Positions 1 to 13,999 of a stretch of 13,999 nt of DNA are shown here, one piece after another. Both the position numbers and the translations under genes were made by a program. Source of the DNA: Planctomycetota bacterium (GTDB lineage: Bacteria > Planctomycetota > PUPC01 > DSUN01); the NCBI GenBank assembly GCA_016872875.1, contig VGYW01000218.1, positions 1-13,999 on the forward strand, in the 5' to 3' direction. How positions within the stretch are numbered: position 1 is the first letter of the stretch; the number at the start of each line of letters is the position of its first letter. Below the pieces are notes generated by a model. The model did not search any database. It was not told the origin of the DNA and was given only the letters and a program-made list of their open reading frames with translations.

Positions 1-813
1 GAGACGAGCCTCCGCGGCCTCCAGACCGACCGCGTCGACGTCCTACTCCTCCACACGGTGAGCGACGCGGAGACCTACGAGCGGGTGATGGCGCCCGGCG
101 GCGGCTACGAGGCCGCGGCCAAGGCCAGGCAGCAGGGGAAGGTCGGCCACGTCGGCGTCTCCATCCACCGCGACCTGGCCACCGTGCGCCGCGCCATCGA
201 GAGCGGCGCCTTCGAGGTCGTCATGCTCGCCTGCTCGGCCATTGACCAGGAGGGCGCCGTTGCCCTCCTCCCGCTCGCCGCCCAGCACGGGGTCGGCACC
301 GCGGCCATGAAGCCGCTGAGCGGGGGCCAACTGGTCAGCCCGCCGGGGCCAGGCGGCCTCCCCCTCTCGCCCGACCCCGTGGTCAGCGGGGCGCTCCGCT
401 GGCTCATTTCCGATCCCCACCTCGACACGATCATCCCTGGCATGGTGTCGGCGAAACAGGTCGAGGACAACGTGGCCGCGGCCGAGAAGGGGCCGCTCTC
501 CGACGCCGAGCGCGCCGAGCTGATCGAGCTCCTCGGCGACCTCAAGAAGTCCTACCGCTACGGCCAGACGTGTCTGAGGTGCGGCTACTGCCAGCCGTGC
601 ACCAACGGCATCAACATCCCCGCCATCTTCCAGGCCGCCGACATGCTCAGGGAGTACCCCGACAACCTGAAGCACATGGGCCGCGAGCTCTACGCCGCCC
701 AGGCGCGCACCGCGGCCGACTGCGAGGAGTGCGGCCACTGCCTTGAGCACTGCCCCGCCAAGCTCGACGTGCCCCGCCGCCTCCGCGAAGTCGCCCAGCT
801 CTTTGCGGGGTGA
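1..813 (+). CDS. Aldo/keto reductase with C-terminal 4Fe-4S cluster region (5' end cut by window)
   Basis: The reading frame is open from base 1 to a TGA at 811-813, giving 270 visible residues; the N-terminus lies outside the window. The first visible stretch, SLRGLQTDRVDVLLLH, matches the conserved strand of NADPH-dependent aldo/keto reductases, and GKVGHVGVSIH and TAAMKPLSGG follow in the order expected for the TIM barrel. The C-terminal third carries two cysteine clusters, CLRCGYCQPC (C-x2-C-x2-C-x2-C) and CEECGHCLEHCP (C-x2-C-x2-C-x3-C), typical of 4Fe-4S binding. This arrangement is known from the group of predicted aldo/keto-reductase-like oxidoreductases with a ferredoxin-type tail. 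It is probably cytoplasmic, and its substrate is unknown. It converges on the minus-strand genes across a 442-bp gap and is not part of their operon. Confidence 0.88.
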   Translation, partial: ETSLRGLQTDRVDVLLLHTVSDAETYERVMAPGGGYEAAAKARQQGKVGHVGVSIHRDLATVRRAIESGAFEVVMLACSAIDQEGAVALLPLAAQHGVGTAAMKPLSGGQLVSPPGPGGLPLSPDPVVSGALRWLISDPHLDTIIPGMVSAKQVEDNVAAAEKGPLSDAERAELIELLGDLKKSYRYGQTCLRCGYCQPCTNGINIPAIFQAADMLREYPDNLKHMGRELYAAQARTAADCEECGHCLEHCPAKLDVPRRLREVAQLFAG

Positions 814-874
814 CCGCGCCTGACGGGACTTCTGGCCGGGTGATAGACTGCTGATGTCGGGAAGGCGGATGTGA

Positions 875-897
875 GAAAAGACTCCTGGAGTCTTTTC
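875..897. terminator. Perfect hairpin, possible bidirectional terminator
   Basis: GAAAAGACTC and GAGTCTTTTC form a perfect 10-bp stem around a 3-nt CTG centre, about 60 nt after the aldo/keto reductase stop and in a convergent gap. The T-run sits in the 3' arm rather than after the stem, and the downstream bases are C-rich, so it is not a textbook intrinsic terminator. It could serve transcripts from both sides. Sequence evidence is the stem alone; the function is inferred. Confidence 0.3.
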
Positions 898-913
898 CGC
901 CCCTCCCTTGGCA

Positions 914-1199
914 CCACGCCCCACAGATGAGGGGGCAAGAGCGCAGTCCCGAAGGGACAGCAGTAGGTAGCCGGCGGCTTCAGCCGCCGGATTGGGGCGC
1001 ACACACAACCCCAGTCCCGAAGGGACGGCAGTAGCCCACGGGAGACGGCCCGGCGCGTGTGTCTGCCGTCCCTTCGGGACTTCCCTGCTTCTGGCGACGA
1101 GTCCGGCGGCTGAAGCCGCCGGCTACCCACTATGATGCTCCCTTTGGGAGCAAGAGATCGAGGTGCCTGCGGTTTTGCCCCCTTAGTTGTGGGGCGTTG
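914..1199. repeat. Composite inverted-repeat (REP-like) element of nested palindromes
   Basis: This element fills most of the convergent intergenic gap 814-1255, which contains no gene I can support. Its outer ends (914-938 and 1175-1199) are inverted copies matching at 21 of 25 positions. Inside, reading inward from the left, are GTCCCGAAGGGAC (946-958), CCGGCGGCTTCAGCCGCCGG (971-990) and a second GTCCCGAAGGGAC (1014-1026). The right half mirrors this with GTCCCTTCGGGAC (1068-1080), CCGGCGGCTGAAGCCGCCGG (1103-1122) and GCTCCCTTTGGGAGC (1137-1151). A spacer GCAGTAG follows two of the left palindromes. The form resembles REP/BIME elements, often mobilised by RAYT transposases in other bacteria, but no transposase is in the window. 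Confidence 0.75.
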
Positions 1200-1255
1200 T
1201 GGTCAGGTCGCTCTGGTCCCTTGGGTCCCTTCCTTCGCCCCGCTATCACGCCTTA

Positions 1256-2986
1256 TCACAGCCGCGGATGGACGCGGCGGCCGCCGAGCCAGGTGGACTC
1301 GACCTCGATGTCCCTCACCGCGTCGAGGGGGCAGGTGAGGACGTCCTGCTTGAGGACGATGAAGTCGGCGAGCTTGCCCGCCTCGAGGGAGCCCTTCTGC
1401 TTCTCCTCGAAGGTGAGGAAGGCGTTGTTGATGGTGTAGAGGCGGATGGCCTGCTCGCGGCTGATGCGCTGCTCGGGGTGGAGGGGCTGATCGGTCCAGC
1501 GGGGTTGGCGGGTGAGGGCGGTCCAGATGCCGAGGAAGGGGTCGTAGGGGTTGATGGCGCGGCGCCGGGCGAGCTTCTGCATGTGGTCGGAGCCGCCGCC
1601 CACGACGACGCCCTGCTCGAAGAGGGTCTTGTAGGGCTGGAAGAAGGCGAGGCGCTCGTCCCCGAAGTGCTTGCGCAGCGTGGCGCCGTCGAGCCAGAGC
1701 CAGGCGGGCTGGAGGTCGGCCACGACGCCGATCTCCTTCATCTTCGCAATGGCCTCGGGGGTCATGAAGTTGGCGTGGGAGAGGCAGGGGCGCTTGTCAC
1801 GCACCGGGAACTCGCGATTGACCTTTTCGTAGGCGTCCACGAGGGCGGTCACGGCGCCGTCGCCCACGCAGTGGGCGGTCAGTTGAAGGCCGTTCGCCAG
1901 GGTGGTGCGGGCGATCTGGTGGAGGCGGTCGGGCGGGACGAAGAGCATGCCGCGGTAGGCCGGGTCGGTGATGCCGTAGATGGCGCTTACGCCCCAGGGC
2001 TTGAGCATGTAGGCGCTCCCCGTCAGCATCCCGCCGTCGAGGTATATCTTGATGCCGCGGAGCCACAGAAGGTTGTCGTAGGCGTGGAGGGGGTGCTTGG
2101 CGGCGGCGAGGATGGCGGCCTCGGCCTTCTCGATGGGCGCCTGGGCGTCCACGTAGCGGGTGAGGAAGACGCGGCAGGTGAGCTCGCCCTTCTCCTTGAG
2201 CCGCAGGTAGGCGGCGAGCTCGGCCTCGCCCGCCTCGCGGTCGGTCACGCTGGTGATGCCGACGGCGTTGTAGGCGGCCAGGAGGGCGCGGAGGCGTGCG
2301 GCGCGGTCGGCGTCGGTCGCCGGCTTGCCGCCGCCCGACTGCTTGAGGTAGCGGGTGCAACTGCGCAGGATGCCGGTCGGCTCGCCCGTCTTTGGGTCGA
2401 GCTCGACGACGCCCGGCTTGCCGTCAATGACCTTGAAGTCGCGGTCGATGCCGCTGAGCTTGAGGGCGAGGGAGTTCACCGAGGCGTCTGGCCCGGTGCG
2501 GAAGGCCACGGGGTGCTTGGGCGCCGCGGCGTCGAGCTCCGCACGCGTCGGGAAGCGCTGCTCGCGCAGCCGCGTGATGAAGACCTGCGAGAGGCCGATC
2601 CACTCCCCCTCCGGCACCACCGCCGCCCGCGCCTTGACGTAGGCCAACACGTCCGCGATGGTCTCCATGTTCGGCACCTCGTGGTCGAACTCGAACATCG
2701 CGCCATCGAGGGGGTGGGAGTGGGAATCAATGAGGCCGGGCAGGACTGTCTTGCCCTGGAGGTCTATCCGCTGCGTGGCTGGGCCGGCGAGCTTGATGAC
2801 CTCGGCATCGCTCCCCACGGCCACGATCCGCTCCCCCTTCACGGCGAGCGCCTGTGCGATGCGGAACTCGGCATCTACCGTCACTACCTTGCCGTTGTGA
2901 ACCACGAGGTCGGCCTGCTCGGCCGCGGCCACGACGGCCAGCAGGCCTAGCGAAAGGCAGAGGGACAAGGCTAGCGATGTCGTCAT
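1256..2986 (-). CDS. Exported metal-dependent amidohydrolase (YtcJ-like, amidohydrolase family 3)
   Basis: The 576-residue protein starts with a signal peptide (LALSLCLSLGLLAVVAAA, about residues 5-22), so it likely acts outside the cytoplasm. The amidohydrolase fold is shown by the N-terminal beta-sandwich segment (about 25-80) and the metal motif GLIDSHSHP with H89 and H91. Further along come K313 in GIKIYLDGGM, H372 in TAHCVGDGAV, H404 in LSHANFM and D467 in GGGSDHM, which match the metal and catalytic residues of the YtcJ-like group. The C-terminal GSLEAGKLADFIVL is typical of the superfamily. The substrate is probably an N-acyl or amide compound but cannot be inferred. ATG at 2986 has AGGAA 8 nt upstream, overlapping the TGA of the preceding gene; the gap is 12 nt, so the two are probably cotranscribed. 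It is the last gene of the unit. Confidence 0.9.
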   Translation of the reverse strand: MTTSLALSLCLSLGLLAVVAAAEQADLVVHNGKVVTVDAEFRIAQALAVKGERIVAVGSDAEVIKLAGPATQRIDLQGKTVLPGLIDSHSHPLDGAMFEFDHEVPNMETIADVLAYVKARAAVVPEGEWIGLSQVFITRLREQRFPTRAELDAAAPKHPVAFRTGPDASVNSLALKLSGIDRDFKVIDGKPGVVELDPKTGEPTGILRSCTRYLKQSGGGKPATDADRAARLRALLAAYNAVGITSVTDREAGEAELAAYLRLKEKGELTCRVFLTRYVDAQAPIEKAEAAILAAAKHPLHAYDNLLWLRGIKIYLDGGMLTGSAYMLKPWGVSAIYGITDPAYRGMLFVPPDRLHQIARTTLANGLQLTAHCVGDGAVTALVDAYEKVNREFPVRDKRPCLSHANFMTPEAIAKMKEIGVVADLQPAWLWLDGATLRKHFGDERLAFFQPYKTLFEQGVVVGGGSDHMQKLARRRAINPYDPFLGIWTALTRQPRWTDQPLHPEQRISREQAIRLYTINNAFLTFEEKQKGSLEAGKLADFIVLKQDVLTCPLDAVRDIEVESTWLGGRRVHPRL

Positions 2987-2998
2987 TCGCAGAGTTCC

Positions 2999-5707
2999 TC
3001 ACGGCTTGGCGGCGCGATAGGCCCGAATCGTTTCGGCCAGCTTGTTCAGGTGGAACAGGTCGCCGCGTTCGAGCCAGGGGACGTCGATCCACTTTTCGAG
3101 CTGTTCGGGCTTCTCGCCGAGAATCCACGAGCGGGCCATGAAGTGCTCGAAGGCGTCGGAGGGGTGGTTCATGTTGTGCTCGTAGCCCAGGATGGCCGGG
3201 GCGAAGCTGGCGTACCAGGTGGGCTGGTTCCACGCGATGCGGTCGGCGTAGGCGGCGCACTCGGCCTTCAGGTGGTCGCGGAGGAAGGCGGCCAGCTCGG
3301 GCGTGAGGTAGCGAAAGGCGACTGGCTCCACGGTGCACAGTTGATGCCACTTGTCGCCCATCACGCCCGCCCAGTGGCCGAGTTCGACGCGGTCGGGGGC
3401 CAGCTCGATGACCTGCTGCACGTCGTGCTCGGGCTTCGACCAATCCATCGTCTCAAGATCGCCGCACCAGTTCTGCGGGCCGCGGCCGCGCCAGGCCCAG
3501 AACCAGTCGGCCTTGGGCGGCAGCTTCACGAGGCCCGCCTGGTATCGCCATTGCGCCATCTTGCCCATCGCAAAGCGAAGGACAGCGGCTCGTGCGAAGA
3601 GCCACCAGGCATTCTGCTCGGCCTCCTTGTCGCCCATGAGGCGGGCGAGGCGGATGGCGCCGATTGCGCCGCTGAAGCGGCGATTGGCGTTGACCACGGC
3701 GGCGGGCCTATCGCCGCGCCAGCTCTGGGTCGCCCCGTGCTCCTTGCGGAGCGCTTCGCGTTCTTCGGGCTTGCCCATCCAGGGCAGGAAGCGGTTGGGG
3801 TGGCCGAGGTGGTAGAGCGTCGCCCAGCCCTGCTCCTCGAAGGCGGCGGCGATGACTTTTGTACACGCCTCCCACTCCTCCGCTGTCGGCTTCGTGCCGC
3901 TGAGGGCGTAGTAGCGTTCCAGTCCGTAGAGGGCGAAGAGGCTGACCCGCTTCCCGCGTTCCTCGGCGATGGTCTTCGAGACGTGGCACGGCCCCACGTC
4001 GTAGCCGCCGCGGCGTGCCCCCTTGTCGGGCGGAATGAGCGGCGTCGTCTCGGGCGGGAACGCCTTGCGGATGTCGGCCATGCGCTCCAGCAGCGCCGCC
4101 TGCTGTTCCCTCTTCACGATGGGATAGAGCTGAGCGAGCAGATACAGCGCCTCCCCCGGCTCACCCCAATAGTATTCCCCTCGCGCCGCCGAGATGGGGA
4201 TGTTGTCTGCATACACCCACGGCGCGAGGCGGCCCGCCTCGATCATCCTCCCCACGTGGGCCGACAGCTCATCCGAAAGGGCCGCAGGGGCCTTCGCGGC
4301 GGGCTGCGTGGCGGTCGAGCTGGCGTACTTCGCTAGGCCGGTGACCATCCAGCTACGCGTATCGGTCCTCTCCGGCGCTTCGCCCCCTGGGGAAACGATG
4401 GCGAACCCGCCCTGCACGGCGCCGGATGCGACCCAGGGCATGAATGCTGGAAGGAAGGAGCCATCTCCGCCATTGAGGAACGCCACCTTCTCAACGAAGG
4501 TGGCCTCGTCCTTCGCGGCGTCGTACCGGAAGCTCTCACGCGCCGAGAGCGGGTACGGGAGCAGGGACTTGAGCACAGTCTTGTATCGCTCGACCATCTC
4601 GGCGGGCAGCCCGGTAGTCCAGGCTTGCGTGACCGATGCTCGTGCCTCGCTGCCAGCGCAGCCCAGGTGAATGAGCACTCTCCTGCCCGGTTGGGCGAAC
4701 GCAAAGTCGAGGCCGCCCTCCTTCGCAGCCGCCACCGAAGTCGGCGGCTGGTCGAAGATCAGGTGCAGCGGGTAGTCGCCGAGGAAGGCATCCTGATGGG
4801 TGCCGCGGGCGGTGATCGGCCAGTCGGTGCCCACGAAGTGGCTCGACTTGCCCCACCAGATGAGGACCCAGGGCTGCGCAGGCGGCGGGACGGGGATGGC
4901 GTCGCCTGTCGCCACGACTCTCACGCCATCGGCGTGCGGCACGGCGATGTGGGCGGGGGTGACGGGGGTCTTGGGAGCGAGGTTCCCGCCCATGTGGCCG
5001 TGGACGCGCATCTTGCCCTTGTCATCGAGTGTGACCATTCGCTCGTGCTGGCCGGCGAAGAGGCGGAGTCTATCGGTCGAGGTCTCAACCACCACGGCCA
5101 TCGAGAGCTGGCTGGCGTAGAGGGTGAGCCTTGCGCCGCCTTCCAGGGTGACGACGGCCTTGGAGTACGACCAGTCGCCCGTGCGCTCGAAGTTCGTCAC
5201 GGCGAGCGCGAAGGGGACCCCGATGCTGCCCAGAGGCACATCAACCGGGCCGAGAGTGTTCCAGCCAGTGTCCATCGAGCCGTCGGCGATGAAGAGGTCG
5301 AGGGTCTTCCCGACCCGTACGCGCAGGTCGAGCGAGCAGAGGGGGCCTTCGCAGAGGCCCTTGGCATTGGCCTGCCAGGCCGCATCCTCCCCGGCCTGGG
5401 CGAAACGCAACTCGCACAGCGCGGCCCCAAGGAGAACCAGCCAACCTAGCCCACGAAGTGGGCGTCTGAGCCGTAGCCCAGGGCGACCGAAGGGAGCCCT
5501 GGGAAACGGCGGCCCCAGGCGTAGAGCCCCCGAAGGGGGCGATTCAACCCGCGCGAGGCGCCCCCTTCGGGGGCTTGACACTGGGGAATGCCGCGATCCC
5601 AGGGCTCCCTTCGGTCGCCCTGGGCTACGGCTGGGTCGCCCGCATTCGCGGGCTACGAGGAGTCGAGGACGAGGACGACGACGAGGACGAGGACGATGAG
5701 GGGCCAT
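2999..5707 (-). CDS. Large exported protein of unknown function, N-terminus extended by a palindromic repeat
   Basis: I do not recognise this family. I start it at ATG 5707 because GGGAGGA lies 7 nt upstream and the ATG follows the previous gene's TAG after one base, a normal operon junction; the product is 902 residues. Residues 2-25 are Arg/Pro-rich from a low-complexity DNA tract, and about 26-85 are encoded by palindromic repeats. A signal-peptide-like core (GLGWLVLLGAAL, about 86-97) then ends in AQA at 103-105. No ATG or GTG lies between a GTG at 5581 and this core; the nearest is a TTG at 5410, inside it. The mature part is about 797 residues. Its first half looks beta-rich. The second half is helical with many Trp, His and Tyr (YYWGEPGEALYLLAQLYP; GWATLYHLGHPNRFLPW), loosely like alpha/alpha-toroid enzymes acting on carbohydrates. 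That comparison is only an impression. Confidence 0.78.
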   Translation of the reverse strand: MAPHRPRPRRRPRPRLLVARECGRPSRSPGRPKGALGSRHSPVSSPRRGRLARVESPPSGALRLGPPFPRAPFGRPGLRLRRPLRGLGWLVLLGAALCELRFAQAGEDAAWQANAKGLCEGPLCSLDLRVRVGKTLDLFIADGSMDTGWNTLGPVDVPLGSIGVPFALAVTNFERTGDWSYSKAVVTLEGGARLTLYASQLSMAVVVETSTDRLRLFAGQHERMVTLDDKGKMRVHGHMGGNLAPKTPVTPAHIAVPHADGVRVVATGDAIPVPPPAQPWVLIWWGKSSHFVGTDWPITARGTHQDAFLGDYPLHLIFDQPPTSVAAAKEGGLDFAFAQPGRRVLIHLGCAGSEARASVTQAWTTGLPAEMVERYKTVLKSLLPYPLSARESFRYDAAKDEATFVEKVAFLNGGDGSFLPAFMPWVASGAVQGGFAIVSPGGEAPERTDTRSWMVTGLAKYASSTATQPAAKAPAALSDELSAHVGRMIEAGRLAPWVYADNIPISAARGEYYWGEPGEALYLLAQLYPIVKREQQAALLERMADIRKAFPPETTPLIPPDKGARRGGYDVGPCHVSKTIAEERGKRVSLFALYGLERYYALSGTKPTAEEWEACTKVIAAAFEEQGWATLYHLGHPNRFLPWMGKPEEREALRKEHGATQSWRGDRPAAVVNANRRFSGAIGAIRLARLMGDKEAEQNAWWLFARAAVLRFAMGKMAQWRYQAGLVKLPPKADWFWAWRGRGPQNWCGDLETMDWSKPEHDVQQVIELAPDRVELGHWAGVMGDKWHQLCTVEPVAFRYLTPELAAFLRDHLKAECAAYADRIAWNQPTWYASFAPAILGYEHNMNHPSDAFEHFMARSWILGEKPEQLEKWIDVPWLERGDLFHLNKLAETIRAYRAAKP
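5449..5653. repeat. Nested palindromic repeat cluster inside a coding region
   Basis: A perfect 34-bp inverted repeat (5471-5504 against 5597-5630) encloses a second inverted pair, GCCCCCGAAGGGGGC (5526-5540) and GCCCCCTTCGGGGGC (5560-5574). Each 34-bp arm is itself a hairpin built on CCCAGGG/CCCTGGG. Flanking hairpins are GCCCACGAAGTGGGC (5449-5463) and GCCCGC-ATTC-GCGGGC (5638-5653). The layout matches the element at 914-1199. Here it lies within the 5' part of the 902-residue ORF, encoding about residues 19-87 in frame with no stop codon. Confidence 0.8.
5664..5700. repeat. Low-complexity GAGGAC/GACGAC tract
   Basis: A purine-rich run of GAG, GAC and GAT triplets on the plus strand lies just inside the start codon of the minus-strand gene. 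Read on the minus strand it gives a His/Arg/Pro run directly after the initiator methionine. It looks like a slippage-prone simple repeat next to the palindromic cluster. Confidence 0.6.
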
Positions 5708-5708
5708 G

Positions 5709-6896
5709 CTATTGTCCTCCCGCGAAGCAGCGGAGGCCGTGCAGGCTGGCGTGGTAGAGGTGGCCGTCGGCGACGAGGGCCTGGCTGGCGCCGCCGCCCT
5801 GGGTGTTGCTGACGAGGTTCTGCCACGGGCCGCCGGGGATGCGGGACCACGTGCTCGCGGCGAGGTCGTAGCAGCCGGTGAACTGGGCGTTGCCCTCCTG
5901 GCAGTGCATGACGAAGATGATGCCGCCCGCGGCACTGGCGATCATGTTCTCGTCGTTGTTGCCCCGGCCGCCATCCTTTGTGGAGATGTCCTCGATCTGC
6001 TTCGAGGCGGGGTCAACTCGGCACCAGCCGCCTCCCTTGGCGGTGACGAGGCGCCCCTCGCCATCCACGCAGGGCGGGGCGACCGCGCCGTTCATCGTGA
6101 TGCCGCCGGGGATGGTGAGGGCGACGGGCTGGCCGGTCTTCTCGTCGAAGGCCGAAGCCTCCCAGGGGCCGAAGGGGCGGACGATGACCATTCCCTTGTG
6201 GACGACGGGCCAGTAGTCCTTGAAGGCGAGAGCGCCCTTCAGCGGCTCGGTCTTCCACAGCTCTTTGCCGCCCTTGGCGTCGAGGGCGTAGAGGCGGCAG
6301 TCCATTCCCGCGACGTAGAGGCGGCCATCGTTGTAGGCCGGCGACTGAAGGAGCGGGCAGGCGAGGTCGGCCTTCCACGCCAGGCCGCCATCGGGCTGGT
6401 TGAGGGCGAAGAGCGTTCCGCCGCGGTTGGGGGCGAAGACCTTGCCCTCGGCCAGCAGCACGGCGGTCGAGAAGCCCGTGCGGAGCTTGGAGTCAAACTT
6501 CCAGGCCAGCTTGCCCGATTCGGCATCGAGGGCGTAGACGCAGCCATCCATGGAGGCGAAGAAGACTTTGCCTCCTTCGACGCCCGCGCTGTGGAGGATC
6601 GGCCCGGCGGGGAACTTCCAGAGGCGTTTGCCATCGGCGGCGCTCAGGCAGTGGAGGTTGCCGCTCTCGGTGCCGAGGTAGATGCGCCCGCCCGCGATGG
6701 CCGGCTGCATGGCGGGATAGAGCCGCTCGGGCTGGAACTGGACGTTCCACTTGAGCTTGAAGGGGGGCTTGAGCTTTTCGGCGGAGAAGCCCGTGTGCTG
6801 CGGGCCATTGCCGAGCTGGGGCCAGTCGGCGGCGAGGACAGAGAGGGACCACAGGGACATCAGGGACCACAGGGACGCAAGAGAGCGAGACTTCAT
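5709..6896 (-). CDS. Exported PQQ-like beta-propeller repeat protein
   Basis: The 395-residue protein has a signal peptide (about 1-22, ending in LAA before DWPQLGNGPQHTGF). The DWPQ...R/QHTG opening is typical of secreted PQQ-like propeller proteins. Four clear PQQ/YVTN-type blades follow: GRIYLGTESGNLHCL (about 70-95), GKVFFASMDGCVYALD (109-134), GKVFAPNRGGTLFALN (151-176) and GRLYVAGMDCRLYALD (191-216). Each ends near a W-K pair. The later blades are more divergent. These proteins resemble BamB in fold, but many have no quinone and serve as scaffolds or binding proteins; I see no dehydrogenase catalytic site. ATG 6896 lies 3 nt after the cupin stop with GAGGA upstream, and the next gene starts one base after this stop, so translation is probably coupled. 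Confidence 0.88.
   Translation of the reverse strand: MKSRSLASLWSLMSLWSLSVLAADWPQLGNGPQHTGFSAEKLKPPFKLKWNVQFQPERLYPAMQPAIAGGRIYLGTESGNLHCLSAADGKRLWKFPAGPILHSAGVEGGKVFFASMDGCVYALDAESGKLAWKFDSKLRTGFSTAVLLAEGKVFAPNRGGTLFALNQPDGGLAWKADLACPLLQSPAYNDGRLYVAGMDCRLYALDAKGGKELWKTEPLKGALAFKDYWPVVHKGMVIVRPFGPWEASAFDEKTGQPVALTIPGGITMNGAVAPPCVDGEGRLVTAKGGGWCRVDPASKQIEDISTKDGGRGNNDENMIASAAGGIIFVMHCQEGNAQFTGCYDLAASTWSRIPGGPWQNLVSNTQGGGASQALVADGHLYHASLHGLRCFAGGQ
5715..5721 (-). promoter_or_regulatory. Strong Shine-Dalgarno GGGAGGA deciding the start at 5707
   Basis: On the minus strand GGGAGGA ends 7 nt before ATG 5707 and sits inside the last codons of the PQQ-propeller gene, whose TAG is separated from the ATG by one base. 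Neither the in-frame GTG at 5581 nor the TTG at 5410 has a comparable site. It is the main reason to accept the repeat-derived N-terminus as translated. Confidence 0.65.
6844..6879. repeat. 18-bp direct repeat encoding the hydrophobic part of a signal peptide
   Basis: AGGGACCACAGGGACATC (6844-6861) is followed at once by AGGGACCACAGGGACGCA (6862-6879), identical for 15 bases. On the coding strand this gives the repeated peptide pattern SLWSL-x-SLWSL in the signal peptide of the PQQ-propeller protein. Confidence 0.7.
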
Positions 6897-6899
6897 GGC

Positions 6900-7247
6900 T
6901 CAGTCCTCGGTGAACCATTCGTCGGCGGGGTCCCAGGCAGGGACGCCGATGATGAGGGCCTTGAAGTCGCCGTGGCCGCGGTGGGGGGTGCCGGGGTCAA
7001 TACGCACGAGGAGGCCGGGGCTAAGCGCCAGCTTGTCGTCGGCAACCTCAAGCGTGCCTTCGCCTTCCAGGATGTAGTAGAACTCGGTGCAGAGCTTGTG
7101 GAAGTGGCGGCGGGAGTCCTGGATGGAGGTCACGTGGATGTTGGCAGGCGAGCCGTCCTTGCGGGTGAAGATGCGCCAGCTCTGGCCGCAGGGGCAGGGG
7201 ACCGGCTTCACATCGCTCAGATGTCTTGCTTCGTAGCCCTTTGACAA
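6900..7247 (-). CDS. Small single-domain cupin protein
   Basis: The 115-residue protein is a single conserved beta-barrel of the cupin superfamily. Motif 1 is HFHKLCTEFYYILEGEG with metal ligands H48, H50 and E55, and motif 2 is PGTPHRG with H89. All four expected ligands are present, so it should bind a metal. Single-domain cupins act as isomerases, dioxygenases or sugar/ligand binding proteins, and the role here is not readable. No signal peptide is visible, so it is cytoplasmic. The start is a TTG at 7247, with GGAG 9 nt upstream; no in-frame ATG or GTG would keep the whole domain. It lies 25 nt after the protease gene and 3 nt before the PQQ gene. The CPCG near residue 18 is a possible extra metal or redox feature. 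Confidence 0.87.
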   Translation of the reverse strand: MSKGYEARHLSDVKPVPCPCGQSWRIFTRKDGSPANIHVTSIQDSRRHFHKLCTEFYYILEGEGTLEVADDKLALSPGLLVRIDPGTPHRGHGDFKALIIGVPAWDPADEWFTED

Positions 7248-7272
7248 GGGCGGCGTCTCCGAGAGGTGGGCG

Positions 7273-7635
7273 CTACTTCAGCCACAGCGCCGGCAGGCGC
7301 GTGAGGGTCTGGCTGACCGGGTCAACGAGGATGCCGACCGATTCCAGGGCCAGGACGCCCAGGATAGGTTGGCAGTGGTCGGGTCCGAAGATGATTCGGG
7401 CTGGCACGATCTCGCCCATGAACTCGAGTTCGGCGAAACCGACATCGTATTCCGTCGGGCTGCCGTCGGCCAGCTCATACGTCTTGCGGCCGCGCTTGGT
7501 GACCCCGATTCGGCGAAGCTCCCGGGCAGGGGCCATGCAGTCCGTGGCGCCTGCGTCTACCACAAACAGGGCCTCGTACTTCCGGCGTGCCTTGGCCGTG
7601 GCTCGCAATGTTGCCGTAACCTGGGTGAATCCCAT
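7273..7635 (-). CDS. Small retropepsin-like aspartic protease (clan AA)
   Basis: The 120-residue protein starts at ATG 7635, with AGGAG 7 nt upstream. The active-site region reads LFVVDAGATDCMAP, where D27 is the expected catalytic aspartate. The family usually has D-T-G or D-S-G; here it is D-A-G. The second hallmark, ILGVLALESVGILVDP (about 91-106), matches the I-L-G-x-x-x-L-E-x-x-G-x-x-V-D-P pattern of bacterial single-domain retropepsin-like proteins. Such proteins act as homodimers, each subunit giving one aspartate. No signal peptide is visible. It is separated by 86 nt from the FG-GAP gene and by 25 nt from the cupin, so it may open the downstream transcription unit. Whether it is active with alanine at the threonine position is uncertain. 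Confidence 0.83.
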   Translation of the reverse strand: MGFTQVTATLRATAKARRKYEALFVVDAGATDCMAPARELRRIGVTKRGRKTYELADGSPTEYDVGFAELEFMGEIVPARIIFGPDHCQPILGVLALESVGILVDPVSQTLTRLPALWLK

Positions 7636-7721
7636 TGGGTCTCTCCTGCAACGCGGACGGCGGACGTCCCTCTTCTGGCATTCTACCGCCTTTGGCTGCG
7701 AACGTCCACGCCGGGTCGGCC

Positions 7722-10124
7722 TCACTTGAAGTCCTCCTCGCGTATCGCGAGCCTGAGGCCCTTGGGCTCGATGGTGAGGGTCTTCTGGGCGACGCGGCCG
7801 TCGGTGAGGCAGACGGAGAGCTGGCACTTGCCAAGCGGGAGGCCGAAGTGGGCGACGGGCGTGGCCTGGCCGCCGCAGCTCTCGCCGCCGTTGAGCTCGC
7901 GGAGGCCGAGCGGGCGGCCCTTGTCGTCGGCCACGCGGACGACGGCTCCCACAAGCCCCTTGCGAGCCTGGACGCGGACGGTGAGGGCGGCGCGGTCGGG
8001 GGCACGGTCCATGTCGTTGGCCAGGATGGCCACGCGGCCGTCCTGGCTCAAGGCGAGGTCGAGGTCGCCATCGTCGTCGGCATCGGCGAAGGAGGCGGCG
8101 AAGGCGAGGCCGAGGCCCCCGAGGCCGGCGTTCGCCGAGGCATCGCGGAAGCGGCCCTTGCCGTCCCCCAGGTAGAGGCGAGGCGGGGCCTTCACATAGC
8201 AGACCAGGAGGTCGAGGAAGCCGTCGTTGTTCACGTCGCCCCAGGCCGCGGAGAAGGAGGGCTCGGCCGCGCCCGCCAGGTCGCCCGCGGCGGAGGCTAC
8301 GTCGGTGAACGTGCCGTCGTTGTTATTGCGATAGAGTTTGGGCCTGGCAGGGCCGGGCACGAAGAGGTCGAGGTCGCCGTCGTTGTCGTAGTCGGCGAAG
8401 ACGAGCCCGCGCTTGGCCTCGTTGGAGGTGCCGAAGCGGATGCCGGCGCGGGAGTCGAGCTTGAAGCCCTTGCCGCCCTCGTTGTGGGCGAGCACGCCGT
8501 CGCCGAGGTTGTAGAGGAAGTCGGTGTAGCCGTCGCCGTCGTAGTCGGCGAAGGCGACGAAGTCGCCGTTGCCGACCCCGAGCCCCTTTGGGCCGAGGCC
8601 AACCTTGTCGCTGACGTCCCGGAAGCGGGCCGGCCCCTTGCCGGTGTTCTCGAAGAGGCGGATGCCGTGCTCGCCGTTGGTGATGAGGGCGTCGGGCAGG
8701 CCATCGCCGTTGTAGTCAATCCAGCCAGCTCCCTCGGGGTTTCGCTCCTTCGGGGCGGGCAGGAGCCTGGCGTCGTCGCGGAACGGGGTGGAGGCCTGGG
8801 TGAAGAGGCGGAAGGCGCCGGTCAGGAGGTCCGGGTGGCCGTCGCCGTCGTAGTCGGCCCAGGCTGCGGCGCGGGAACCGCTCGAGACGCCGAATGGGGC
8901 GGCGAGCTCGCGGAATGGGCCGCCGTCGTTGATGAGGAGCAGGTTGCCCTGCGAGGCGCAGGCGTAGAGGTCGAGCCGCTCGTCGCCGTTGACGTCCGCC
9001 CACGAGAGGCCCCTTGCCTCGCCGCCCGCGGCGCGCGGGGCGGAGGCCAGGAGGCGGAACCCGCCGCCCTTGCGCGGGCCGATGCGCCCGAAGGCTACGC
9101 TCCCCCTCCTCGGCATGCCCTCCACGATCAGCATTATCTTGTCCACCCGCCCTTCATTGGGGAGGGGGAGCGAGTGCTCCCAGTTGGAGGCCTGCGACTT
9201 GAAGGTGCGCCCCGCAAGCTGGAAGCTCACCTGCGCGGCCCTGGCCCTCGGCGGGACGCTGACGGGTGGCGACTCGAGCATCGCCCACTCGGGCGCGGCG
9301 CCGAAGGCCACGGAGACCGCGAGCGGGCGGTCGGACGCATTGTCCACCTCGGCCGCGAACCGTGTGCCGCCCGAGAGGTCAATGTGGTGGAGGATGGCGA
9401 CGGCCAGCTTTCTTTCGGGCTGCCCGTCGCAATCAACGCGCAGGAGCTTGCCGCGCTTGCCCGCCTCCTCGACCGCGAGGCGTGCGGGGCGAGCCCAGGA
9501 GTCGTCCACGTACCAGCCTGGGATGGCCTCGAGGCCGGCCGCGGCCTCCTCGACACGCGGGGCGCGCACCGGCGGCGGGCCGGGGCGGCGCGGGTCGAGC
9601 GACGGCAGCTTCGGGTTCGGCCTCGGCGCCGCCACGCGGCGGGCCAACACGTCGTCCGTCAGCTTCACCAGCTCCGCCGTCGTGCCGTCGAACGTGCGGT
9701 TCATCCTGATCTCGATGTGGGTCATGCGCCACCAGACGCGGCTCTTGTCGGGCTCGTCGGTCGCGTAGAACTGCACCCAGTGGTCGCCGAGGTGCGCGCA
9801 GGAGAGGATGTTGTTGCCCTCGCGGCGATAGAAGAGGAGGAAGGGCTGGCCGGGCTGGAGGCGCGCGAGCGTGTAGTCGGACTGGTCGGCCGCGGCGATC
9901 CCCAGGTTCAGTTGCACCCGCGGGATTTCGACGCGGCCCTTGAGCGCGCGGTCCACGATTGCGATGGCCGCTCGCTTCTCCTTGTTGACCGCCTCGATCT
10001 TGCCGGCGACGACGTGGGTGGACTCGTCGAGGACCTGTTGGAGGGGATAGAGCGCCTCGATGTAGGCGATGGCCTCGCCGCCCACGAGGAGCGCGAGCAA
10101 TGCGCAGTGAACTCTCAGCAGCAT
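7722..10124 (-). CDS. Exported FG-GAP/VCBS seven-repeat propeller protein with ASPIC/UnbV-like tail
   Basis: The 800-residue protein begins with a signal peptide (about 1-20, LLALLVGGEAIA). Residues 20-165 form an unassigned N-terminal domain with a Trp pair (WWRMTHIEIR). A Pro-rich linker at about 166-190 follows, then a second unassigned region to about 365. Seven calcium-binding D-x-[DN]-x-D-G-type loops come next, near residues 377, 424, 470, 527, 578, 630 and 681, for example DYDGDGHPDL and DADDDGDLDL. Seven repeats are enough for one closed integrin-like beta-propeller. The end (about 712-785, with RELNGGESCGGQ and HFGLPLG) matches the ASPIC/UnbV module. It is likely a surface or periplasmic binding protein. 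ATG 10124 follows TGAGGAA at close spacing. Confidence 0.9.
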   Translation of the reverse strand: MLLRVHCALLALLVGGEAIAYIEALYPLQQVLDESTHVVAGKIEAVNKEKRAAIAIVDRALKGRVEIPRVQLNLGIAAADQSDYTLARLQPGQPFLLFYRREGNNILSCAHLGDHWVQFYATDEPDKSRVWWRMTHIEIRMNRTFDGTTAELVKLTDDVLARRVAAPRPNPKLPSLDPRRPGPPPVRAPRVEEAAAGLEAIPGWYVDDSWARPARLAVEEAGKRGKLLRVDCDGQPERKLAVAILHHIDLSGGTRFAAEVDNASDRPLAVSVAFGAAPEWAMLESPPVSVPPRARAAQVSFQLAGRTFKSQASNWEHSLPLPNEGRVDKIMLIVEGMPRRGSVAFGRIGPRKGGGFRLLASAPRAAGGEARGLSWADVNGDERLDLYACASQGNLLLINDGGPFRELAAPFGVSSGSRAAAWADYDGDGHPDLLTGAFRLFTQASTPFRDDARLLPAPKERNPEGAGWIDYNGDGLPDALITNGEHGIRLFENTGKGPARFRDVSDKVGLGPKGLGVGNGDFVAFADYDGDGYTDFLYNLGDGVLAHNEGGKGFKLDSRAGIRFGTSNEAKRGLVFADYDNDGDLDLFVPGPARPKLYRNNNDGTFTDVASAAGDLAGAAEPSFSAAWGDVNNDGFLDLLVCYVKAPPRLYLGDGKGRFRDASANAGLGGLGLAFAASFADADDDGDLDLALSQDGRVAILANDMDRAPDRAALTVRVQARKGLVGAVVRVADDKGRPLGLRELNGGESCGGQATPVAHFGLPLGKCQLSVCLTDGRVAQKTLTIEPKGLRLAIREEDFK

Positions 10125-11377: not shown

Positions 11378-13450
11378 CTACCGCCTCAACTCGTAGATGC
11401 GGCAGTTGGCGTCCTGGTGGACGAGCTTGAAGCCGTCGGGGCGAAGGCGGATCCAGTCCGTCTCCTGCGGCTCCCGCCGCCGGTCGTCCAGGGGAAACTC
11501 GGGGTTGAGCTGAACGAATACGTGAGTGGTCCCGGCCGCACGAAGGTTTGACATCCAGGTGGCCGAATCGTCGCCCGCCGGGACGTAGCGCACCACGTTC
11601 TGGAGCCGCCGGCCCATCAGCGGGTAGAAGAACCAGTGGTCGCCGAAGCCTGGCGAGAAGCTGGCGAGGGCAACCACCCGGCCCGGCTCCAGCTTGTCGC
11701 AGAACGCCCAGCCGTCCACCCAGTGCCGAGGGATCGGGTGCAGATCGGTCCGCGTGGCATAGAAACGGCCACGCTTCGCGTCCCGAACCCATGCCAGCGC
11801 GATGGCTCCGCCAAGCAGCCCGACGGTGGCCAGTGCAACAACGAGAAACCGAGGAAAGCGTTTCACGAGCAAGGCAAGAGCCAGCGCAACCGGCACGACG
11901 CACGCCACAAGGAGGAGGACATCCGGCGAATCTGGCAGGACGCACATCACGCAGAGGTCGAGGAGCAGGAACCCGCAGAGGACAGCGCGGACGACCGCCG
12001 CCGCTCGCGCTGTCCAGAGGAGCGACACGCCGGCCAGCGCGCTCGCCGCCATCAGCCCCACGGGCAGCCCGAGGAGCCGGCAACAGCTCAAGTGCCAGAA
12101 ACGCCTCACGATCGCCGACTTCGCCGAAGGATCGAGGTAGAAGGCGAGGAGCGGCACGATCCAGCACAACGCCAATGCCCGCAGGAGCCCGCGCGACGGA
12201 GAATGTCTGGCGCGGGCGAGAGCCAGGAGTGCGAGCGCGGCCAGGAGAGGCATCTTCGGCCCCCAACTGAGCGGCGCAGGCTCCTCCCCGTAGGAGTATG
12301 TCGCGGAGCGGGCGAGCTGCCGCACGTCGTCCCGCCAGCTCCCTCGGCCGAGGATGCGCTCGGCCTCGGACGCCCAGGCGGAACCAGGAAAGACGTTCGC
12401 CCCCAGGACTCGCACGTTCATTGGATAGAGCGGGTTGCCCGTCTCTGCCCAGTTGCGGATGTGGCGGTAGCCGCCGAAGGCTACCATGAGAACGGCGCAA
12501 AGCCCGAGTGTCGCAGGGAGAGATTTCCGGCTTTGGCGCCAGGCCGCAGCCAACATGAGCACGCAGAGGAGTCCCGCCGGCAGGAGCGCCGAGTGCTTCG
12601 CCCCCACGCTCAGGGCGCACGCCAGGAACCCCATCGTGGCGTCGGGCCAGCTCCACGCCCGCAGACACCTCGCCATGAACAGCGCCCCGGCCAGCAGGAG
12701 CGCCGCCACGAAGATGTCCGCGTACTGCGTCGTAACGTAAGCCAACATCGCGGGCGACAGGCAGACGAAGCCCGCCGCCAGCGAGCTGTCCTCAAGCCCC
12801 AGCTCAAGCTCCCGGCATAGCCCGTACACGCTCACTGCTGCGAGAGCCAGCAGCGGCAGGTTCACGAAGTTCACCAGGAAGTCGCTATGGAACGGCAGCA
12901 TCACCCAGGCCAGGAGCGCGTGGAAGTTGGTCGGGAAGTAAGCGTAGTCGCTCACCCCCTTGGGATAGGGCAGGTCCACCAGGCCGCCCGCCTGCACCCA
13001 GGTGCCCGCCACGTAGTTGTGGAAGTTCAGCGAATCGTAGGAGAGCGGCGGCCACACCGCGGCCCGGTAGAGCGCGAAGAGCGCGACGATGCCCACGCCG
13101 AGCAGGAGCGCCCCGCCCCGCGAGGCCGCGACGAGCCTGAGCCAACCGGCGCAGCGCCGCCAATCGCCGCCATCGCCCCGGCGACCGCCCCAGGCCAGAT
13201 GGGCGGCCGCCGCGAAGGCCGCCGCAGCAAACGCCGCCGCCCACCGGTTCAACGCCCCTGCGAGCGCCAACGGGTAGAAGATGGCCATCACCAGCGCAAG
13301 TGAAACCGTGGCGTTCGCCGCCAGCCGCACCGAAGCCCGCGCACCGGGCCAGAAGCGCCGCGCTGCCAGGTGCCCGCACCAGCCCAGGGCACCAGTGGCC
13401 ACGAGCGTCAGGAGAAGCCCGATCGATGTCCCCACCGCCATTTCGACCAT
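11378..13450 (-). CDS. Polytopic membrane protein, GT-C-like glycosyltransferase (ArnT/PMT/RgtA-like)
   Basis: I start at ATG 13450 (690 residues) because AAGGG lies 8 nt upstream; ATG 13471 and GTG 13477 are in-frame alternatives inside the first copy of the palindromic array. The protein has about ten or more hydrophobic segments, beginning with TSIGLLLTLVATGALGW. After the third or fourth segment comes a loop with WPPLSYDSLNFHNY, where D139 fits the catalytic aspartate of the first loop in GT-C enzymes, and then YFPTNFHALLAWVMLP, a common pattern in dolichyl/polyprenyl-phosphate-sugar transferases. A soluble C-terminal part (about 575-690, including LRAAGTTHVFVQLNP) should face the periplasm. 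The likely role is transfer of a sugar from a polyprenyl-phosphate donor to lipid or protein; donor and acceptor are unknown. It is the first gene downstream of the 74-bp array. Confidence 0.8.
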   Translation of the reverse strand: MVEMAVGTSIGLLLTLVATGALGWCGHLAARRFWPGARASVRLAANATVSLALVMAIFYPLALAGALNRWAAAFAAAAFAAAAHLAWGGRRGDGGDWRRCAGWLRLVAASRGGALLLGVGIVALFALYRAAVWPPLSYDSLNFHNYVAGTWVQAGGLVDLPYPKGVSDYAYFPTNFHALLAWVMLPFHSDFLVNFVNLPLLALAAVSVYGLCRELELGLEDSSLAAGFVCLSPAMLAYVTTQYADIFVAALLLAGALFMARCLRAWSWPDATMGFLACALSVGAKHSALLPAGLLCVLMLAAAWRQSRKSLPATLGLCAVLMVAFGGYRHIRNWAETGNPLYPMNVRVLGANVFPGSAWASEAERILGRGSWRDDVRQLARSATYSYGEEPAPLSWGPKMPLLAALALLALARARHSPSRGLLRALALCWIVPLLAFYLDPSAKSAIVRRFWHLSCCRLLGLPVGLMAASALAGVSLLWTARAAAVVRAVLCGFLLLDLCVMCVLPDSPDVLLLVACVVPVALALALLVKRFPRFLVVALATVGLLGGAIALAWVRDAKRGRFYATRTDLHPIPRHWVDGWAFCDKLEPGRVVALASFSPGFGDHWFFYPLMGRRLQNVVRYVPAGDDSATWMSNLRAAGTTHVFVQLNPEFPLDDRRREPQETDWIRLRPDGFKLVHQDANCRIYELRR

Positions 13451-13458
13451 CGCTGGAA

Positions 13459-13463
13459 CCCTT
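13459..13463 (-). promoter_or_regulatory. Shine-Dalgarno AAGGG supporting the start at 13450
   Basis: AAGGG on the minus strand lies 8 nt before ATG 13450. The two upstream alternatives, at 13471 and 13477, fall within the palindrome and have no clear ribosome binding site, which favours the shorter protein. Confidence 0.45.
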
Positions 13464-13468
13464 GCTCT

Positions 13469-13999
13469 CATTCTCACATTCTTGAGAATGTGAGAATGAC
13501 CACGGCCAGGCCCATCGCGCCCTCCTCTGGCGCCTTCGCCCTCATTCTCACATTCTTGAGAATGTGAGAATGACCACGGCCAGGCCCATCGCGCCCTCCT
13601 CTGGCGCCTTCGCCCTCATTCCCACATTCTTGAGAATGTGAGAATGACCACGGCCAGGCCCATCGCGCCGTCCTCCGGCGCCTTTGCCCTCATTCTCACA
13701 TTCTTGAGAATGTGAGAATGACCACGGCCAGCCCCATCGCGCCGTCCTCTGGCGCCTTCGCCCTCATTCTCACATTCTTGAGAATGTGAGAATGACCACG
13801 GCCAGGCCCATCGCGCCCTCCTCTGGCGCCTTTGCCCTCATTCCCACATTCTTGAGAATGTGAGAATGACCGCGGCCAGGCCCATCGCGCCCTCCTCTGG
13901 CGCCTTCGCCCTCATTCTCACATTCTTGAGAATGTGAGAATGACCACGGCCAGGCCCATCGCGCCCTCCTCTGGCGCCTTCGCCCTCATTCCCACATTC
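13469..13999. repeat. 74-bp tandem array with a 30-bp palindrome in each unit (runs off the window)
   Basis: Palindromes start at 13469, 13543, 13617, 13691, 13765, 13839, 13913 and 13987, exactly 74 bp apart; the eighth copy is cut by the window end. Each has 14-bp arms (CATTCTCACATTCT and AGAATGTGAGAATG) around a TG centre, and each arm contains CATTCT twice. Copies 3, 6 and 8 carry one T-to-C change in the left arm. The 44-bp segments between palindromes are almost identical (one to four substitutions among copies), so this is a minisatellite-like array and not a CRISPR. The period of 74 bp is close to seven turns of B-DNA. Since 74 is not a multiple of three, no long frame runs through it. 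The stretch contains no gene I can support. Confidence 0.92.

Follow-up and report, generated by a model that had tools for sequence, protein, structure and literature searches.

The window, the whole stretch of DNA that was analysed here, is a 13,999-nucleotide segment of a Planctomycetota bacterium assembly (contig VGYW01000218.1 of GCA_016872875.1), and it closes with a tandem array of palindromes lying directly ahead of a minus-strand gene for a membrane glycosyltransferase-like protein. Tandem Repeats Finder places the array at 13460–13999, with a period of 74, 95% matches, 0% indels and a score of 996. Within each palindrome, 14-bp arms flank a 2-bp centre. The original prediction, eight copies at 74 bp, is right in its period and its 14-bp arms, and its count becomes seven complete palindromes plus the 13-base start of an eighth. 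From the gene outwards, the features are:

11378..13450, minus strand: membrane glycosyltransferase-like gene, 690 amino acids; its start adjoins the array
13460..13999, no strand: tandem array with a 74-bp period, a 30-bp palindrome plus a 44-bp GC-rich spacer
13469..13498, no strand: palindrome 1, 14-2-14, nearest the membrane gene
13543..13572, no strand: palindrome 2
13617..13646, no strand: palindrome 3, T to C in the left arm
13691..13720, no strand: palindrome 4
13765..13794, no strand: palindrome 5
13839..13868, no strand: palindrome 6, T to C in the left arm
13913..13942, no strand: palindrome 7
13987..13999, no strand: palindrome 8, incomplete at the window end

Only 6 of the 74 positions vary among units, and this near-identity makes recent amplification, as originally proposed, probable. 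The T-to-C change in two of the seven complete palindromes (copies 3 and 6) is uncompensated in the opposite arm. The GC content is 37% in the palindrome, 59% in the array (13460–13999) and 68% in the whole window, and the half-site, allowing up to three mismatches, has 15 matches, every one in or touching the array (shuffled mean 0.30). Stops in all six frames across the array rule out a coding repeat, and a known RNA family was rejected, as no Rfam match within the array reaches the gathering score. A consensus scan of 13300–13999 returned no promoter-like or terminator-like site, a weak negative, as chance alone would give only 0.1 and 0.3. The array does abut the gene start, the ATG at 13450 being 18 bases from the first palindrome; an alternative GTG start at 13477 would fall inside it. 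The proposed phasing near seven helical turns holds as arithmetic only (74/10.5 = 7.05 turns). Contigs that encode the protein of the neighbouring gene reach 13,999 bases at most. The window therefore probably spans the entire contig, and the array probably runs on to the contig end, with the assembly stopping within the array.

Palindromes of this type are not private to the array. The pattern CATTCYCANATTCN{2,16}GAATNTGRGAATG, searched in one genome per species, occurs in at least 115 stretches, and all but two of the places listed have the 30-bp form. Among the 115 stretches listed, 81 record titles bear lineage names that we take to be Patescibacteria, four bear Planctomycetota names (two of them Phycisphaeraceae), one Verrucomicrobia and one Methylomirabilis. 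The Methylomirabilis match (L077) may come from a misbinned contig, the L091 match falls within a long predicted open reading frame (ORF), and the G080 match is asymmetric and may be due to chance. In even draws, the palindrome was present in 12 of 192 genomes of the phylum of genome G001 and in 4 of 294 of that of G010. Degenerate neighbours broaden the consensus to ATTCn4ATTCn4GAATn4GAAT, with covariation at inner stem positions; it has 1–22 matches in each of 18 palindrome-bearing genomes, and the backwards pattern has a single match, in G010 alone. A phage or plasmid origin was rejected for lack of any match in viral contigs (exact pattern), phages and plasmids.

We surveyed the positions of 154 palindromes in 103 loci under 52% GC, using simple longest-ORF gene calls. 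Outside ORFs of at least 80 amino acids, or at most 30 bp inside them, lie 133 of the 154, such ORFs making up 83% of the DNA. The intergenic gaps that hold them are co-directional, divergent and convergent in 94, 16 and 14 cases (plus 9 at locus edges), against 89, 21 and 14 expected from gap length. Many palindromes lie near stop codons (median 30 bp), and random intergenic places lie at distances from starts and stops that are not significantly different (p 0.18 and 0.25). The palindrome is a repeat scattered mostly between genes, in Patescibacteria and in certain Planctomycetota and Verrucomicrobiota.

Three other explanations of this dispersal were set aside. DNA uptake sequences would predict single half-sites, whereas most matches with 0–1 mismatches are, by eye, degenerate palindrome arms (70 of 100 further half-site matches in the loci, at up to two mismatches, were judged). 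Integron-like cassettes fit poorly with the close palindrome pairs examined, whose interval often holds one particular gene, described below, and no search for an integrase was made. An extended mobile unit is disfavoured by an all-against-all comparison of 400-bp flanks, in which, among the comparisons listed, similarity is mostly confined to palindrome and stem, with few local duplications. One locus, L120, holds four palindromes at 303–7253 among genes that read as small nucleotidyltransferase/HEPN-pair-like, three of the four sharing an upstream flank. Close pairs with 57–108 bp spacing are present elsewhere. Palindromes are also located at contig ends (L033, L073, L155 and L157), so arrays may be lost during assembly.

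Several close palindrome pairs flank a gene for a winged helix-turn-helix (wHTH) protein of about 90 amino acids. The protein matches Pfam HTH_5 or MarR, and one of five such proteins scores above the 55-bit cut-off of the NCBIfam ArsR/SmtB model. Its predicted structure has an ArsR fold (mean predicted local distance difference test, pLDDT, 93), a winged helix with four helices, a two-strand wing and a C-terminal helix. In an alignment of 23 members, N48, K50, T51 and H55 are invariant and lie in or next to the predicted recognition helix; no cysteine is invariant or nearly so. The family is large: of 7,997 database proteins scored, 5,019 reach E 1e-6. A literature search found, among the papers listed, no publication on it or on a palindrome–wHTH system. 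The upstream palindrome usually starts 44–60 bases ahead of the wHTH start codon, and the second overlaps or comes after the stop codon; in some genes the palindrome itself encodes the C terminus TFSHS, with TGA at the palindrome centre. One 1.3-Mb genome, G021 (L123, L124 and L158–L167), has 12 wHTH matches, 10 of them with palindromes on both sides at a score of at least 9.

The bracketing was examined in 39 further wHTH genes, chosen by protein match alone in palindrome-bearing genomes, around which inverted repeats were sought without any motif at a score threshold of at least 9. An inverted repeat is present on both sides in 23 of the 39 and on at least one side in 33. Among 490 other genes in L001–L115, a repeat lies upstream in 69, downstream in 106 and on both sides in 14; none of 12 further genes that share loci with the wHTH genes has both. 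The arrangement extends beyond the ATTC/GAAT motif, since a divergent wHTH gene of a Verrucomicrobia metagenome-assembled genome (MAG; L151, 4296–4640) is bracketed by an unrelated palindrome, GATTAGCATATTTGCAAATATGCTAATC.

Across all 73 rows of wHTH genes, in which the L154 gene is counted twice (two start choices), 41 have both palindromes. Palindromes flanking the same gene are more alike than palindromes of different genes (similarity 0.88 versus 0.61), a value reached by none of 20,000 permutations. Palindromes differ among the wHTH paralogs of one genome, and in six genomes with several wHTH genes (23 genes) the own-pair similarity is 0.85 versus 0.54 (again 0 of 20,000 permutations). 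The own downstream copy is the best match for 29 of the 41 genes, and protein identity tracks palindrome similarity (rho 0.69; 0 of 2,000). Such co-variation would be the trace expected from a protein-specific recognition sequence; shared descent of gene and palindromes also contributes and is not fully separable from recognition. Together these comparisons are strong sequence evidence for a protein–palindrome link, and the earlier idea of binding-site-like palindromes thereby gains a strongly indicated protein partner, the ArsR-like wHTH proteins whose genes they bracket.

The copies differ in their surroundings. A −10-like hexamer stands on the gene side of the upstream palindrome in 20 of 37 cases (shuffled 19%), at one fixed distance in 8 of the 20, and on its far side in 6 of 37 (Fisher p 0.0013 versus the gene side). 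Downstream palindromes have such a hexamer on 14% and 11% of sides, and 94 solo palindromes on 13% of 188 sides (shuffled 22%). Since the excess is found at the upstream copy alone, only the copy ahead of the wHTH gene looks like an operator. Solo palindromes show no orientation preference (gap types 68/13/13, p 0.58) and no sense-strand T-run bias (at least six T in ten in 18 of 68 on the sense strand, 36 of 68 on the antisense); in these respects they resemble neither typical operators nor intrinsic terminators. The original prediction had named random scatter of the unit, with no link to gene starts, as its own refutation; solo copies are largely scattered in this way, and copies beside wHTH genes are linked.

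The nearest relative found, the Planctomycetota MAG M_DeepCast_400m_m2_195 (G026, which holds L091), allows the locus itself to be compared. All six window proteins tested are present on its contig C48 in the same order, with identities of 86% for an amidohydrolase (220 amino acids, truncated by the contig start), 77% for a 978-amino-acid ORF (319 amino acids), 87% for a PQQ protein, 61% for an FG-GAP protein, 81% for a YdjY-acylphosphatase protein and 48% for the membrane protein. The last has a weak LA_3751-type match in NCBIfam, below the cut-off, and all its matches that bear an organism name are from Planctomycetota. In the 20 kb examined of C48, the palindrome is absent even at three mismatches. 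By ORF calls, 55 bp separate the membrane gene from an upstream, same-strand radical-SAM gene. The gap matching the array site (L214, 11820–11874) holds short GGCGG hairpins, one with a GGAG foot. Elsewhere G026 has 32 palindromes at up to two mismatches (none with a reversed-pattern control). By our own count, 19 of the 32 share the ATTCTATAGAAT core that brackets the G026 wHTH gene on contig C710, 11 have window-like ACATTCT arms and two are GC-rich and probably unrelated; on contig C55, two sites have starts 76 bp apart. The palindrome family is therefore resident in the window's kin, and the array is missing at the single syntenic site examined. The array thus has the look of a local amplification in one lineage and not of an operator conserved with the glycosyltransferase-like gene.

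Our preferred interpretation, to which we assign a probability of roughly 0.6, is that the array is a tandem cluster of predicted recognition sites of a self-bracketed small ArsR-like wHTH protein, resembling the bacterial interspersed mosaic elements (BIMEs) formed by repetitive extragenic palindromes (REPs). It draws on the bracketing, the protein–palindrome co-variation, the −10 enrichment upstream only, the extragenic dispersal and the absence from one syntenic locus, and we infer from these that the protein binds the sites, represses its own gene and is titrated by further copies, and that the window's organism encodes a cognate protein. A wHTH dimer would bind the two-fold symmetric palindrome, and binding at the upstream copy would repress the wHTH gene's own promoter. 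Solo copies and arrays outside promoters would not act as operators of adjacent genes but would serve as additional sites for titration or DNA organisation. One such site may have arisen ahead of the membrane gene in the lineage of the window and then been amplified head to tail.

Palindromes and wHTH matches are also associated across genomes. A wHTH match at 1e-5 is present in 21 of 29 palindrome-bearing genomes. In the 192-genome draw, 4 of 12 carriers have a match at 1e-10, against 6 of 180 others (Fisher p 0.0015); at 1e-25, a cut set after viewing the list, the figures are 4 of 12 and 1 of 180 (p 4e-5). Several observations count against the proposal. Eight of the 29 genomes have no match at E 1e-5, all of them MAGs or bins by title; only 4 of the 12 carriers in the draw have a match at 1e-10, and six matches there fall in genomes without strict palindromes. 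Of the 39 wHTH genes picked by protein, 16 lack a palindrome on one or both sides at the chosen score, and for 12 of the 41 two-palindrome genes another gene's downstream copy is closer. A strict two-unit pattern occurs in none of 379 genomes of the phylum of G021, Planctomycetota not having been searched in this way, and no wHTH gene is present among the nine window proteins scanned.

The most direct alternative is an operator array, in which a regulator bound to phased palindromes controls the membrane gene. The position directly upstream of the start codon, the spacing close to seven helical turns and the −10-like boxes beside such palindromes at wHTH genes speak for it. We consider it unlikely, given the G026 locus, where the palindrome is missing and the gene closely follows a same-strand neighbour, and the solo copies, which have neither a −10-like excess nor a bias to starts or divergent gaps; the empty promoter scan adds little, with 0.1 sites expected. 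The operator specific to the glycosyltransferase-like gene that was first envisaged is not borne out by that locus or by solo copies without promoter or orientation preference. Hairpins acting in RNA, as terminators or mRNA stabilisers, we regard as very improbable. A two-unit stretch of the array does fold far better than shuffles (z −8), so that leader hairpins could form as suggested, and many copies lie near stop codons; solo copies, however, have no sense-strand T-run bias, the stop distances of the palindromes as a whole are not significantly different from random, and the palindromes match paralog-specifically.

Likeness to known repeats and regulators bears on the remaining alternatives. 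PMC2817692 states that a pair of inverted REPs flanks every gene for a REP-associated tyrosine transposase (RAYT) and that REP copy number is usually above 100 per genome, and passages of PMC3733652 state that most REPs carry a GTAG or CGTC tag at one foot, alongside descriptions of tagged REPs, Y1 genes flanked by terminal inverted repeats, and clusters. As far as these passages go, the palindromes here resemble the REP/BIME/RAYT system in being dispersed and extragenic, in flanking a protein gene as a pair, in varying between paralogs and in being clustered in places (PMC2817692; PMC3733652). They differ in that the bracketed protein is a DNA-binding protein of about 90 amino acids with an ArsR-like fold and no sign of a transposase domain, that the copies are few (the strict pattern gives 1–22 per genome, and allowing up to two mismatches gives 32 in G026), that the upstream palindrome tends to adjoin a −10-like box and that GTAG, GGAG and CGTC tags occur at chance (17 of 169 versus 17.8 expected). 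A REP/BIME element moved by a RAYT (Y1) transposase, with no more than an incidental link to wHTH genes, would suit the extragenic, dispersed and locally clustered copies and the Y1_Tnp genes in 28 of 34 palindrome-bearing genomes. Yet the other six have no Y1_Tnp, a by-eye comparison of listed coordinates places one such gene about 1 kb or less from a bracketed wHTH gene (G021 C56) and shows no regular adjacency, and the palindrome sequence follows the wHTH protein; we judge this explanation quite improbable.

Autoregulation occurs in the ArsR/SmtB family, and the palindrome at the wHTH gene's own start region is reminiscent of it. Regulators such as CzrA, SmtB, CadC and HlyU share the fold and size of the wHTH proteins; the 23 aligned wHTH sequences, unlike the metal sensors, have no conserved metal-binding cysteines, and the system further differs in its second matching palindrome at the stop codon and its many sites without promoter signs. 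AspA, encoded in a partition cassette of plasmid pNOB8, binds a palindrome and spreads. It has the ArsR-like wHTH fold, and its entry title names it as a centromere-binding protein. The sites could then be centromere-like or nucleoid-organising, the wHTH protein binding the palindrome and spreading or bridging as this archaeal plasmid protein does. This kinship, in sequence and fold, makes a partition or nucleoid role conceivable, although AspA ranked below many ordinary ArsR/MarR regulators and the sites are few with the strict pattern; as an account of the array it too seems unlikely.

The window holds other repeats and genes. Two identical GTAG-tagged REP-like hairpins, GTAGCCGGCGGCTTCAGCCGCCGG, lie in inverted orientation at 967–990 and 1103–1126, the only pair that stands out among 21 tagged hairpins in all (15.4 in shuffled sequence). 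An Rfam Acido-Lenti-1 match (945–990, minus strand) overlaps the first of them, which raises the possibility that this RNA family is in part a REP. A 45-nucleotide inverted repeat with 93% complementarity and GTAG within its arm lies at 5460–5504 and 5597–5641, and a clan AA aspartic protease is predicted at 7276–7827, below the cut-off (TIGR03698).

The array belongs to a scattered repeat family that also brackets the genes of small ArsR-like proteins, and this suggests that a simple regulator and its binding sites spread together through genomes without a transposase. A broader possibility, which we put forward tentatively and think somewhat doubtful, is that the self-bracketed regulator represents a new class of genomic parasite or symbiont, with wHTH protein, operator and matching second site as one unit. 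Such units would diversify into paralog-specific pairs and seed solo sites and arrays across Patescibacteria, Planctomycetota and Verrucomicrobiota without a transposase, the sites titrating the regulator or anchoring the nucleoid to set the regulator's level. The bracketing ties the wHTH family to a repeat found across the genome and to a recognition code that can be read: paralogs within one genome have different matching pairs of palindromes, so protein–DNA specificity could be read from sequence. The system would exemplify a REP/RAYT-like organisation that has formed around an ordinary DNA-binding protein, and it gives the uncultured Patescibacteria a testable regulatory or chromosome-organising system.
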